Shown here piece by piece: positions 3,461-23,659 of a stretch of DNA of 41,271 nucleotides. Location of the stretch: contig CACJKN010000010.1 of the NCBI GenBank assembly GCA_902594005.1, positions 1-41,271 on the forward strand. The letters run 5' to 3'. The notes under the pieces were generated by a model. That model saw nothing but the letters and a program-made list of their open reading frames with translations, ran no database searches and was not told where the DNA came from. Each line of letters opens with the position of its first letter. Position 1 is the stretch's first letter. Made by a program: the position numbers and the translations under genes. Source of the DNA: an uncultured SAR86 cluster bacterium. Its GTDB lineage: Bacteria; Pseudomonadota; Gammaproteobacteria; Magnimaribacterales; D2472.

Positions 3461-4887
3461 CCGAAAATAACTTTCGCAAAGTAATATGCAAAAACTGTCA
3501 CTATAAAAATACCAGCAATGTTTATAAAGAATCCAGCACGCATCATATCAATTATTTTAAATTTGTTAGCTCCATAAACAATTGCATTTGGAGGCGTTGC
3601 TACTGGCAACATGAACGCACAGCTTGCTGCAAGCACAACAGGAACAGTTAGAACTTCTGGCGCAACACCAACAGCAACTGCAACTGCTCCAAAAACTGGT
3701 AAGAAAGTTGATGTTGTTGCAACATTGCTAGTAACTTCTGTTAAAAATATTATTAGTGCAGCAACAGCCATAATAAGAATTATTAATGGAACTGTTTTAA
3801 GGCTTACAAGGCTTTGACCAATCCAAAGACCAAGACCAGTATCATTAATTTGAACACCAAGCGATAAACCTCCACCAAAGAGGAGTAATAATCCCCATGG
3901 AAGCTTGCTTGATTGTTCCCATGAGAGTAACTCTCCATTTCTTCCACTAGAAGGAATTATAAATAAGGCAATCGCCACCAGAATTGCTATACCAGCATCA
4001 GTAAGACCAATTACATAGTTATCAATTAGACTTCTAAACATCCACAAACCTGCTGCGATGAAGAAAACAATCCCAACTCTAAACTCATCTTTAGACATAG
4101 GACCCATATCAGTCAACATTTTTGAAAGAGTATTCTTTGTTTCAGCCGATGAAGCAAAATTTACAGGATAAACAACTTTTGTAAGAATCAACCAAGCTAA
4201 TATAAGCATACAAATTGAAACTGGAACACCTAACTTCATCCAATCAATCATAGAAATTTCTAAACCATAAACTTCCTGCATAAAAGAGCTAAAAACAATA
4301 TTTGGAGCCGTGCCTACTAATGTTGACATCCCTCCAATGGTAGCTGCATATGCGATAGAAAGTAAAAGAGCTTTGTCAAAATTACTCTTATCTTTTTCAG
4401 ACATATTTGGGACAGTTTTTGCAACAACCGAACATATTGCTAGGCCAATAGGTAACAGCATAAGAGTTGTTGATGTATTCATTACCCACATACTAATTAA
4501 AGCAGAAACAAGCATGAATCCACCTATTAGCTTAGGCCCATCAGAGCCAAGTCTTTTTATCATAATCAAGGCAAGACGTTTATGAAGGCCGGATCTTTCG
4601 ATTGATAAAGCAATTAGAAAACCACCTAAAAAGAGGTATATGTTTTTATTTGCGTATGGAAGTGCAGCTGTTTCTATTGAGGTAACTCCAAGAATTGGAA
4701 AGAGGGCTAAAGGTAATAAAGATGTAACAGGAATAGGTATTGCTTCTGTTGACCACCAAGTGACCATCAATATCGCAACGGCTGCAACTAACCAAGCACT
4801 TTCCGTTAAACCAGCAGGAGAGGGCAATAAGATTATTGCAAAAAAAAGAAATACTCCTACCCAAAAACCTCTTTTTCTTAAAGCCAT
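3457..4887 (-). CDS. DASS/SLC13-family sodium:dicarboxylate (or sulfate) symporter
   Basis: Inner-membrane secondary transporter of 476 residues with about 11-12 hydrophobic segments. Two duplicated signatures mark the family: SNVATTSTFLPVFGAV in the second half and MLPVATPPNAIVYG near the C-terminus, which correspond to the SNT-type sodium and carboxylate motifs. The first half has the matching segment MNTSTTLMLLPIGLAI. DASS proteins move C4-C6 dicarboxylates, citrate or sulfate with sodium; the exact substrate cannot be read from sequence. The gene is followed by ggt with a 4-base overlap. A TATAAT at 4894-4899 (minus strand) ends exactly 6 bases before the ATG and no Shine-Dalgarno is present, so the message is probably leaderless. 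It lies just beyond the terminator of TBDR1 and so has its own promoter. Confidence 0.92.
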   Translation of the reverse strand: MALRKRGFWVGVFLFFAIILLPSPAGLTESAWLVAAVAILMVTWWSTEAIPIPVTSLLPLALFPILGVTSIETAALPYANKNIYLFLGGFLIALSIERSGLHKRLALIMIKRLGSDGPKLIGGFMLVSALISMWVMNTSTTLMLLPIGLAICSVVAKTVPNMSEKDKSNFDKALLLSIAYAATIGGMSTLVGTAPNIVFSSFMQEVYGLEISMIDWMKLGVPVSICMLILAWLILTKVVYPVNFASSAETKNTLSKMLTDMGPMSKDEFRVGIVFFIAAGLWMFRSLIDNYVIGLTDAGIAILVAIALFIIPSSGRNGELLSWEQSSKLPWGLLLLFGGGLSLGVQINDTGLGLWIGQSLVSLKTVPLIILIMAVAALIIFLTEVTSNVATTSTFLPVFGAVAVAVGVAPEVLTVPVVLAASCAFMLPVATPPNAIVYGANKFKIIDMMRAGFFINIAGIFIVTVFAYYFAKVIFG

Positions 4888-4893
4888 AAATTA

Positions 4894-4899
4894 ATTATA
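4894..4899 (-). promoter_or_regulatory. -10 element for leaderless DASS-ggt operon
   Basis: On the minus strand the sequence reads TATAAT-TAATTT-ATG. A consensus -10 placed 6 bases before the ATG puts the transcription start at or next to the A of the start codon. No Shine-Dalgarno fits in the gap. A weak -35 candidate (TTTATG) lies in the loop region of the upstream terminator. Leaderless initiation is an inference. Confidence 0.6.
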
Positions 4900-15373: not shown

Positions 15374-15379
15374 TATAAT
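15374..15379 (+). promoter_or_regulatory. -10 element for leaderless MBL-fold gene
   Basis: The sequence reads TATAAT-ATTTCA-ATG, a consensus -10 ending 6 bases before the start codon at 15386. No Shine-Dalgarno is present and the preceding dksA stop is only 38 bases away. Confidence 0.6.
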
Positions 15380-15385
15380 ATTTCA

Positions 15386-16366
15386 ATGAAATTAACTACA
15401 TTTTGGATGTTATTTCCTGCTCTATTTTTTAATACATCACAAATCTTTGCGGAATATGAAAATACTAATGGCAAACCAATTGAAAAGTCTTTTAAGGATT
15501 TATTGGAGTGGTCAACTAGTGATGTTGATACAAAGATTGATTTCATTGAATTATCTGATGACTGGAAAGATCTTAATTTAGAAGCAGATAATAATTACGC
15601 AATTTGGATTGGCCATTCAACATTCCTAATTAAAAAAAATGGTTACACAATTTTAACTGATCCCGTTTTCTCTGAAAGGGCGTCACCATTCAAGAATATA
15701 GGGCCAAAAAGATTAATACCACCAGCAATACCTATTGATAGCCTTCCAAACATTGACTATGTAACCGTAAGTCATAATCACTATGATCATTTAGATACGG
15801 CGAGTCTTAAAGAGATTTATATAAATAATCCTAATGCTATTTTTTTGGTTCCAGCCGGAGATAAGAAACTGTTACAAAGAAAGGGAATAAAAAATATCTT
15901 TGAGTATGAATGGTGGAATGGATATAAGGTAAACAATCTTGAAATAACTTTTACTCCAGTTCAGCATTGGTCAAAAAGAGGACTCTTCGATAGAAATAAA
16001 AGCTTGTGGGGCGGATGGTTTTTTAAATTTGAAGACTATTCTATTTTCCATGCAGGTGACACAGGCTATTCAAATGACTTCAAGGAAACAAAATCTAGAC
16101 TGGGCTCACCGAAGTATGCTTTTATTCCAATAGGTGCATACGATCCTGAATGGTTTATGGCGGAAAGTCATGTTAATCCAGAAGATGCTGTTCAAATAAT
16201 GCTTGATTTGGGTGCTGAAAATAGTTTTGGAATGCACTGGGCAACTTTTAAGCTCACTGATGAGGATACGTTGGAGCCAAAAGAAAGGTTAGATAAAGCA
16301 ATCAGTAATATAAATAAGGATAATTTCATTGCTCCTAGCCCAGGTTCGGTTATAAATTTAGATTGA
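15386..16366 (+). CDS. Exported metallo-beta-lactamase-fold hydrolase (NAPE-PLD-like)
   Basis: 326-residue metallohydrolase. The N-terminal 22 residues look like a signal peptide (LFPALFFNTSQIFA). The family signature is IWIGHSTFLIKKNG, then LTDPVFSERASPF and the metal motif SHNHYDHLD (H130, H132, D134, H135). Later ligands are in FTPVQHWSKRG, FHAGDTGYS and GMHWATF. The sequence around the metal site is typical of N-acyl-phosphatidylethanolamine phospholipase D-like proteins of the UlaG/NAPE-PLD group, which suggests action on phospholipid or another phosphodiester in the periplasm. The substrate is not established. The gene stands alone between dksA and tRNA-Ala and is probably read from a leaderless transcript. 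Confidence 0.85.
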   Translation: MKLTTFWMLFPALFFNTSQIFAEYENTNGKPIEKSFKDLLEWSTSDVDTKIDFIELSDDWKDLNLEADNNYAIWIGHSTFLIKKNGYTILTDPVFSERASPFKNIGPKRLIPPAIPIDSLPNIDYVTVSHNHYDHLDTASLKEIYINNPNAIFLVPAGDKKLLQRKGIKNIFEYEWWNGYKVNNLEITFTPVQHWSKRGLFDRNKSLWGGWFFKFEDYSIFHAGDTGYSNDFKETKSRLGSPKYAFIPIGAYDPEWFMAESHVNPEDAVQIMLDLGAENSFGMHWATFKLTDEDTLEPKERLDKAISNINKDNFIAPSPGSVINLD

Positions 16367-21639: not shown

Positions 21640-22227
21640 CTAATCTAATAGCTTTGTGGCCTCGTTAAAGTGTTTTCTACACAATACTCTGTATACATCA
21701 TTTCCGCCGATTTGGACTTTTGAACCTTCAGTAATAACCTTTCCACTCTCATCAAGTCTAACAACCATAGTTGCTTTTCTACTGCATACATTGCATACCG
21801 TTTTAAGCTCTATTAAATTGTCTGCTAATGCCAAAAGAGCCGCACTTCCTTCAAACAACTCTCCCCTAAAATCAGTTCTTATGCCATAACACATTACGGG
21901 GATTTGCAACTCATCACATACTTTACACATCTGCAGAACATGATGCTTCTTCAAAAATTGAGCTTCATCAACAAGTATTGCATCAACCTTTCTTTGAGAA
22001 AGCTCTTTTTTTACGTAATTATAAATCTTTAATTTTGAATCAATTACAACCGCTGAAGCGCTTAAACCAATTCTAGATTTTATAAGACCTAAATTCTTAT
22101 CAGCATCTTCTCTTGGAATAAATAAAATTGTTTCATTTCCAGTCTCATGGTAATTGTGAGCTGACTGGAGTAGTGCAGTTGATTTACCAGCATTCATAGT
22201 TGAGTAAAAAAAGTGAACCTTAGCCAT
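21640..22227 (-). CDS. tdk: Thymidine kinase
   Basis: 195-residue type II thymidine kinase that phosphorylates thymidine for salvage in the cytoplasm. The P-loop is STMNAGKST (about residues 9-17), the Walker B-like segment is ILVDEAQFL with the catalytic Glu, and the lasso/zinc domain has CNVCSRKATMVVRL and CRKHF, so all four zinc ligands are kept. The C-terminal IGGNDVYRVLCRKHF fits the family. The ATG at 22227 is chosen over an in-frame TTG two codons upstream because the consensus TATAAT ends exactly 6 bases before it. That pattern mirrors the divergent smr gene and predicts a leaderless mRNA. Confidence 0.96.
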   Translation of the reverse strand: MAKVHFFYSTMNAGKSTALLQSAHNYHETGNETILFIPREDADKNLGLIKSRIGLSASAVVIDSKLKIYNYVKKELSQRKVDAILVDEAQFLKKHHVLQMCKVCDELQIPVMCYGIRTDFRGELFEGSAALLALADNLIELKTVCNVCSRKATMVVRLDESGKVITEGSKVQIGGNDVYRVLCRKHFNEATKLLD

Positions 22228-22233
22228 TAGCAA

Positions 22234-22241
22234 ATTATAAT
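22234..22241. promoter_or_regulatory. Shared palindromic -10 (ATTATAAT) for divergent leaderless tdk and smr
   Basis: The 8-bp palindrome gives TATAAT on both strands. Plus strand: TATAAT-GGTTTT-ATG (smr). Minus strand: TATAAT-TTGCTA-ATG (tdk). The gap is 6 bases on both sides and the two start codons are only 20 bases apart, leaving no room for leaders or Shine-Dalgarno sites. No good -35 is visible in either direction. Confidence 0.65.
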
Positions 22242-22247
22242 GGTTTT

Positions 22248-22481
22248 ATGAAAACTTTTGTTGAGAATGGAATTACTCATTTAGACCTTCATGGAGTTAG
22301 GCATCATGAAGTAAATGAACTTGTTCTTGATTTTGTTTTAAGAAATCAAGAATTAATTCCTTTAGTAATAATTTGTGGCAATAGTGTTAAGATGATTTCC
22401 CTCGCAAAATCCTGTCTAGATTCTAATGAAATAAAATATCAAGATATTAGGTTTGGATTAATCAGAGTTGAGAAAATTTAA
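22248..22481 (+). CDS. Mini Smr-domain protein
   Basis: 77-residue protein resembling a stand-alone Smr domain. The LDLHG motif near the start (residues 12-16) and the segment [11 protein letters not shown] are the two typical parts, although the usual GxG of the second motif is CGNS. Smr domains occur as nicking endonucleases or nucleic-acid binding modules (MutS2, SmrA/B). The His of LDLHG is kept. The stand-alone form here is shorter than SmrA/SmrB and lacks their N-terminal extension. Function is not assigned beyond nucleic-acid interaction. It is read divergently from tdk through a shared promoter, and its stop is 14 bases before the gcdH start. Confidence 0.75.
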
Positions 22482-22483
22482 TT

Positions 22484-22489
22484 TATAAT
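22484..22489 (+). promoter_or_regulatory. -10 element for leaderless gcdH
   Basis: The sequence TATAAT-ATTCGC-ATG places a consensus -10 six bases before the start codon at 22496. The element begins 2 bases after the smr stop codon. Confidence 0.6.
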
Positions 22490-22495
22490 ATTCGC

Positions 22496-23659
22496 ATGAG
22501 CAAACTACCAGACTTACTTCTCTTTGATCAACAACTAACCGAAGAGGAGCTAGCTATTCAAAAAACTGTAAGAGATTATTGTGACAATTCTCTAATGCCA
22601 AGAATTCAAAAAGCTAACAGAGAAGAGCTTTTTGATAAAGAAATTTATAAGGAGCTTGCAGACCTTGGCTTACTTGGGCCTCATATAAAAGGATATGGCT
22701 GTGCTGGAGTGAGTAATGTTGCCTATGGATTAATTGCCAGAGAAATCGAAAGAGTTGATTCTAGTTATAGATCAGCTTTTAGTGTTCAGTCTTCATTAGC
22801 CATGTATGCAATTTACAAATTTGGCTCAGAAGAACAGAAAGAGCACTATCTCCCTGAAATGGCCAAAGGAAATATTATTGGATGTTTTGGCCTTACTGAG
22901 CCAGATGCCGGCTCAGATCCTGCTGGTATGAAATCAGTTGCAAAAAAAGTAGATGGAGGATTCGAATTAACTGGATCTAAAACTTGGATAACAAATTCAC
23001 CAATTGCTGACTTATTTATCATATGGGCCAAGGATGAGCAGGGCGTCTTAAGAGGATTCATTTTGGAAAGAGAGGATGCCAAGGGATTAGAGACTCCATA
23101 TTTGGATGGTAAATTTGCATTACGTGCATCAGCAACTGGAATGATTTTTATGGATCAAGTATTTGTTTCTGATGATAGAGTTCTTCCAGAAGTACAGAGC
23201 TTTAAAGGCCCATTTACTTGTTTAAATTCTGCAAGATATGGAATTGCATGGGGAGTAATGGGTGCGGCTGAATTCTGTTGGGAGAAATCACTTGAATATA
23301 CTCTTGATAGAAACCAATTTAATGCTCCCTTAGCATCAAAACAGCTCATTCAAAAAAAACTTGCTGATATGCAGACAGAAATTTCATTGGGTATGCAAGC
23401 AGCATTGAGAGTTGGAAGATTAATAGATGAGAAAAATTTTGTGCCTGAGATGATATCTTTAATTAAAAGGAATAATTGTCAAAAAGCTTTAGATATTGCC
23501 AGATCAGCTAGAGACATCCATGGCGGTAATGGCATCAGTGATGAGTATCATGTAGTGAGGCATTCAATGAATTTAGAGGCAGTTAATACTTACGAGGGCA
23601 CTAGTGATATTCATGCCCTCATTCTTGGTCAAAAACAAACAAATATTTCTAGCTTTTAA
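22496..23659 (+). CDS. gcdH: Glutaryl-CoA dehydrogenase
   Basis: 387-residue acyl-CoA dehydrogenase. It shares long stretches with mitochondrial GCDH, for example [69 protein letters not shown] and [13 protein letters not shown]. The Glu of YEGTSDIHA is the catalytic base. FAD-binding segments [11 protein letters not shown] and [10 protein letters not shown] are in place. The enzyme oxidises and decarboxylates glutaryl-CoA to crotonyl-CoA in lysine and tryptophan breakdown. No other gene of this pathway is nearby. The gene is probably transcribed alone as a leaderless mRNA and ends 2 bases from the convergent S9 peptidase gene. Confidence 0.95.

Follow-up and report, generated by a model that had tools for sequence, protein, structure and literature searches.

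Can 20 bases of DNA serve as the promoter of two divergent genes and leave both mRNAs without a leader? The question is raised by the spacer between a thymidine kinase gene (tdk) and a gene for a small Smr-like protein (smr) in SAR86, an abundant, mostly uncultured marine lineage. The sequence of the region, read directly, is CAT-TAGCAA-ATTATAAT-GGTTTT-ATG (positions 22225-22250), and it occurs once in the window, as the whole stretch of 41,271 nucleotides that was analysed is called here (Table 1). The two TATAAT copies within the 8-bp palindrome overlap by their central TATA, so that one region carries a -10 element on each strand, and the spacer of 20 bases is the minimum that accommodates the palindrome and two 6-base gaps. 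This is the geometry described in the first-pass annotation, a TATAAT on each strand with each 6 bases from an ATG, and it is confirmed letter by letter; the pattern appears in 0 of 100 dinucleotide shuffles of the window, and composition predicts 0.016 occurrences per Mb in the window's genus. With the usual geometry of -10 elements, both predicted +1 positions are the A of an ATG, and the positions of the hexamers set these two bases 21 bp apart. A consensus scan of positions 22100-22500 yields no -35 partner (shuffle mean 2.0), and T at -18 is absent at both predicted starts, the base being G for smr and A for tdk. Because both elements are missing, the site is probably -10-dominated on both sides.

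Table 1. Features of the tdk/smr region (positions in the window) and loci with the symmetric 6/6 layout in SAR86.
Feature	Position	Strand	Genomes	Basis or remark
tdk, thymidine kinase, 195 aa, ATG at 22227	21640..22227	-		Pfam TK, E 3.5e-48; ATG position conserved
Predicted -10 TATAAT of tdk, 6 bases 5' of its ATG (22227)	22234..22239	-		sequence
Shared palindrome ATTATAAT, overlapping predicted -10 elements of both genes	22234..22241	.		sequence; 6/6 layout in 55/203 SAR86 genomes
Predicted -10 TATAAT of smr, 6 bases 5' of its ATG (22248)	22236..22241	+		sequence
smr-like small protein, 77 aa, ATG at 22248	22248..22481	+		relatives in 125/151 SAR86 genomes; Smr fold by model and Foldseek
Predicted -10 TATAAT of acyl-CoA dehydrogenase, exactly 6 bases from ATG	22484..22489	+		9/9 loci
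Acyl-CoA dehydrogenase of 387 aa; the cluster's third gene that appears leaderless	22496..23659	+		Pfam
Locus A, tdk/smr			8	
Locus B, SDR dehydrogenase/glutaredoxin			23, two genera	Pfam supports both genes
Locus C, ferredoxin/CinA			14, two genera	Pfam supports both genes
Locus D, genus g14			7, of which 6 read (G096 left out)	one real gene only
Locus E, ORFs of 143 and 187 aa			1	no notable Pfam match
Locus F, small ORFs (68 and 72 aa; in L169, with undetermined bases, 68 and 201 aa)			3	no notable Pfam match

The tdk/smr spacer is probably a bidirectional sigma70-type promoter yielding two leaderless mRNAs. Its 20 bases would act as a single promoter, in which each consensus -10 element has its +1 at the A of an ATG, give or take one base. 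Bound in one orientation, RNA polymerase would transcribe tdk, and in the other smr; either mRNA would be leaderless, and ribosomes could begin at its 5' AUG. A streamlined genome may have compacted a divergent leaderless pair in this way, the overlapping -10 elements resulting in a 20-bp spacer. Direct support comes from the sequence geometry, its recurrence, the preference for its spacing and its conservation within the genus; from these we infer the transcription start sites, leaderless translation and use in both directions.

The identity of the two genes and the position of their starts are central to this reading. The first-pass annotation had preferred the ATG of tdk over an upstream TTG, and comparison bears this out: G001 has TTC in place of the upstream codon, and G005 lacks it. 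A TTG start is rejected since the codon is not conserved, and the ATG is the likely start of tdk. TTG stands at the position of this ATG in 7 readable orthologs outside the divergent layout. The 77-aa product of smr has no Pfam match of its own, Smr at its gathering score included, and weak matches to Smr occur in 4 of 11 orthologs (best E 0.021). Its structure model is confident (pLDDT 94.1); in a Foldseek search the matches at ranks 1-7 are Smr domains and rank 8 is a MutS2 model (query TM 0.70-0.76), with a best E of 2.5e-3 and none at 0.001 or below. The protein encoded at 22248-22481 is thus modelled with an Smr fold, and the name smr appears reasonable because the top Foldseek matches of a confident model are Smr domains.

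Collection by protein gives tdk in 97 and smr relatives in 125 of 151 SAR86 genomes. In 33 genomes, from six genera that belong to one family, the two genes are divergent neighbours separated by 20-39 bp. The comparison of adjacency and gaps covers these 33 genomes, hand-picked for adjacent tdk and smr, plus G006 and G007; fragmented matches (e.g., G041, G117) and genomes with tdk and smr apart are left out, and G008 of the window's genus has no tdk match. Both 6-base gaps are kept in 8 of the 9 same-genus genomes with tdk, which were collected by protein and not by the pattern. In G005, of the same genus, the palindrome is kept with gaps of 9 (tdk) and 5 (smr), and in G014, of another genus, ATTATAAT has gaps of 4 (tdk) and 8 (smr). 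In genus g5 all 13 genomes have an exact TATAAT 5' of tdk (10 at gap 6, 3 at gap 7) and none has it 5' of smr, where a hexamer with 5 of 6 bases stands at gap 6 in 2; in genus g8 all 3 genomes have the exact hexamer 5' of smr, at gap 5, and none has it 5' of tdk. The conservation of both 6-base gaps, proposed as a check in the first-pass annotation, therefore holds within the genus and breaks down across genera; related genomes with one TATAAT and not the other, named there as refuting the idea, do occur in the sister genera. Because g5 and g8 each keep one exact TATAAT, the promoters of tdk and smr are separable. The symmetry at tdk/smr is a fusion, or compaction, specific to the lineage. A contig that closely resembles the SAR86 locus (L111), with 96% identity in tdk, is assigned to a 'Crocinitomicaceae' MAG, a placement that is probably a binning error.

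Exact hexamers near one gene only, as in these sister genera, also fit an asymmetric use of the site, in which one gene relies on the promoter, or starts 1-3 bases off and has a tiny leader, and the other is served from upstream or has an incidental match. The palindrome of locus D, accompanied by a single real gene in the 6 inspected genomes out of 7, and the counts of exact TATAAT in the genus, which are also raised at gaps 7-9, point in the same direction. Against this stand the two gaps of exactly 6 in 8 of the 9 genus genomes with tdk and a layout placed between two ORFs at five loci, and such asymmetric use is rather unlikely, while carrying more weight than the other alternatives considered.

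The 26-base layout is not unique to tdk/smr and recurs at other, unrelated gene pairs. Written as CAT-N6-ATTATAAT-N6-ATG (gaps 6/6), it is present in 55 of 203 SAR86 genomes, and the reversed pattern in 0 of 203. The 55 genomes hold 56 sites in six loci (A-F), and two divergent ORFs flank 49 of these sites, which belong to five loci (A, B, C, E, F). Identified genes occupy both sides at tdk/smr, SDR/glutaredoxin and ferredoxin/CinA; the ORFs at two loci are unnamed. Locus D was rejected as a gene pair because one side has an ORF of only 2-8 aa in the 6 genomes read, and it is still counted among the 55; in one of its genomes, G028, a 405-aa ORF has its ATG 13 bases further on. As genomes within a locus are related, independent cases are nearer five or six than 49, and the genome counts and the Fisher tests on them ignore relatedness. 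Collection by protein applies to locus A and to the acyl-CoA dehydrogenase site alone; loci B-F were found by the pattern itself. ORF calling was simple (longest ORF, first ATG), and the symmetric-layout counts refer to ATTATAAT patterns, leaving out a 22-bp variant with ATTATATAAT; also left out are L185, whose sequence ends before its site, and L187-L189. In a phylum-wide sample the layout is found in 4 of 398 Pseudomonadota, the window's genome included, and the reversed pattern in 2 of 398. Two of the three other matches have no ORF longer than 33 aa on either side, and the third, L179, has flanking ORFs of 138 and 136 aa.

Chance combined with compaction would require that an AT-rich short spacer happens to hold the palindrome and that its conservation reflects recent common descent. 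The genomes of locus A are indeed close, their tdk being 91-100% identical in the seven others with 6/6; the genus holds no excess of ATTATAAT (36 copies vs. 64 expected), and the composition estimate, extended over ~220 Mb, allows a few sites among genome counts that are not independent. However, divergent ORF starts flank the sites at five loci, the reversed control is absent from all 203 genomes, and 6/6 is preferred over 5/5 and 7/7, which makes this explanation very improbable; the recurrence of the 6/6 layout is not chance. The preference is visible in the 151 SAR86 genomes, of which 41 have gaps of 6/6, 6 have 7/7 (reversed pattern 5) and 1 has 5/5 (reversed pattern 0). Four of the 6 genomes with 7/7 sites share one gene pair with long ORFs (at least 389 aa and 162 aa), and the 5/5 site has no gene pair with long ORFs on both sides. 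By eye, the products of the 7/7 pair (genus g12, L190-L193, position 1501) resemble an RNase R-type nuclease (at least 389 aa) and RraA (162 aa).

Other symmetric arrangements are also present. An 18-bp geometry, CAT-N5-TATNATA-N5-ATG, occurs in 27 of 151 SAR86 genomes vs. 12 of 151 for its reversed pattern; one locus was read in each of the 27 genomes, without the second sites of G053, G102 and G129, and no more than 4 have ORFs of at least 60 aa on both sides, on which ground the geometry was rejected as the same two-gene layout. TATNATA between CAT and ATG recurs in genera g1, g14 and g15 (L219-L245), usually with one real gene and a tiny ORF, the real genes being purB-like, rpiA-like and acyl-CoA dehydrogenase-like as labelled by eye. 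When 823 kb of the window's genus are scanned for divergent pairs in which each ORF has a -10-like hexamer at a gap of 5-8, 5 pairs are retrieved, among which only tdk/smr has an exact TATAAT on both sides.

The leaderless part of the reading can be followed at genes with the signature on one side. In the window TATAAT-N6-ATG is found 5 times vs. 1.10 expected, a number that 0 of 100 shuffles reach, and all five sites precede ORFs accepted by a simple caller. The acyl-CoA dehydrogenase gene starts 14 bases past smr; its TATAAT and 6-base gap are kept at 9 of 9 loci, and the sequence of the gap takes 7 forms. Further TATAAT-N6-ATG sites lie at the starts of long ORFs at 4885-4899 (-) and 15374-15388 (+), and both genes are likely to be leaderless, judging by this motif. 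In an ORF set from three genomes of the genus (823 kb, first ATG taken), exact TATAAT stands at gap 6 in 15 of 802 ORFs, with counts of 6, 5 and 5 at gaps 7, 8 and 9 and 0-4 at all others up to 59; the reversed hexamer gives 3 at gap 6 and at most 7 at other gaps. Counted from 699 hexamers, ATG follows 29 times at offset 6 and 4-19 times at any other offset between 0 and 24, and GTG (2) and TTG (11) have no excess at offset 6. This peak at gap 6 in the genus supports the leaderless starts suggested in the first-pass annotation.

The enrichment extends over seven genomes of the genus, which hold 231 TATAAT-N6-ATG vs. 68 reversed and 49 with N12, whereas 50 other genomes of the class hold 567 vs. 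762 reversed. It is uneven in SAR86, where some genomes have no excess (e.g., G015, 33 vs. 34 reversed; G057, 21 vs. 24; G110, 19 vs. 22). An excess is also seen in some genomes outside the class, in family f30 (e.g., G175, 26 vs. 7 reversed), which hints at leaderless genes there. With a background near 8, a looser hexamer stands at gap 6 in 36 and at gap 7 in 19 of 797 ORFs, and its reversed form is also raised (17 and 12). Mean base frequencies of 266 first-of-unit genes show T at -7 without a rise (0.38) and an elevated share of G from -10 to -8 (0.20-0.24), as in SD-led genes. Leaderless genes are thus a minority, since these averaged genes have no -10-like column pattern and G is raised; that some exist is probable from the one-sided enrichment in the window's genus. 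SD-like 4-mers occur at 3 of 55 genes adjacent to a -10 and at 123 of 746 others, which is weak support because the hexamer occupies part of the SD window. That the palindrome, by its form and its position between divergent genes, is a regulator's operator common to the gene pairs and not a promoter core is hardly credible and was rejected, since the one-sided TATAAT-N6-ATG sites at non-divergent genes obey the same spacing, the 6-base arms vary (11 forms at locus B, 8 at locus C) and the gene pairs are without evident common function.

Both components of the proposed bidirectional leaderless promoter have precedents. Bidirectional promoters are defined by two starts on opposite strands 7-25 bp apart (PMC10268837), and in those with a symmetric -10 the starts are usually separated by 18 bp, distances of 10 and 23 being also common (PMC10268837, PMC12825309). 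Like the promoters of this class in Escherichia coli and Salmonella, the tdk/smr site has a -10 read on both strands and opposite predicted starts, an arrangement with steric exclusion of two polymerases (PMC12825309, PMC10268837). The spacing differs, 21 bp being predicted in SAR86 with a full consensus -10 on both strands, so that the commonest 18-bp geometry (reciprocal -7/-11 and T at -18, which is not obligatory) does not apply. In those promoters the divergent RNA is often antisense and non-coding (PMC10268837), whereas in SAR86 both are predicted mRNAs. The first-pass annotation had the two genes compete for polymerase. All five bidirectional promoters tested in E. coli are too weak at basal level to compete, and competition appeared once one direction was strengthened (PMC12825309); by analogy, competition between tdk and smr is possible and is not implied by the layout. 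The word 'leaderless' has 0 occurrences in the main texts of PMC12825309 and PMC10268837.

Leaderless genes are known in many bacteria, and a TANNNT about 12 bp 5' of the start codon is taken as their sign in the TA-led genes of Zheng et al. (2011; PMC3160421), as here on both sides of the spacer, where a -10-like hexamer would place +1 on the start codon. Of the 239 gammaproteobacterial genomes in that survey, 15 are listed with leaderless genes, most of them from Xanthomonadales and Legionellales (PMC3160421); the words 'divergent' and 'bidirectional' are absent from the text of that paper. Three divergent systems come closer, each as described in the cited sections. The csoR-cueA divergon of Bradyrhizobium has divergent, partly overlapping -10 elements and a csoR start on the A of the start codon, but cueA has a 42-nt leader, so that one side is leaderless, and a repressor box overlaps (PMC5057107). 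In Mycobacterium tuberculosis the adjacent divergent genes prpD and Rv1129c are both mapped as leaderless, but with starts at internal codons (Met 26 and Val 9), and the cited section does not mention a shared symmetric -10 (PMC3898074). In the EcoRV restriction-modification system two divergent core promoters overlap and couple transcription, but the C transcript is not leaderless (PMC5333194). No paper with 'SAR86' and 'leaderless' together was found in the open-licence PMC literature, and the consulted sections of papers on leaderless, divergent or bidirectional promoters describe no symmetric -10 that serves two starts, each on a start codon. Symmetric -10 promoters and leaderless genes are each known, and the SAR86 layout is a real, recurrent variant that, as predicted from its motifs, fuses both.

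The recurring layout suggests very compact two-way expression without leader RNA in SAR86. If true, symmetric -10 promoters and leaderless mRNAs would be joined in a very compact natural two-gene promoter, and SAR86 would start some genes without leaders. The layout gives exact predicted start positions for five loci, may improve the annotation of start codons in SAR86 and would offer a natural design for a short two-way promoter. A wider proposal is tentative: SAR86 may repeatedly have evolved the 26-bp symmetric module, kept by selection as a minimal expression unit for two genes and as part of a leaderless fraction of its transcriptome, and the choice of orientation at one polymerase site without -35 or leaders might set both outputs and keep the pair balanced or less noisy. 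An even shorter, apparently double-leaderless pair lies in G005 (C1, ~142843-142858; L123), where two divergent ORFs (216 and 581 aa) are separated by a 16-base spacer that has TATATT at gap 6 and TACAAT at gap 7.
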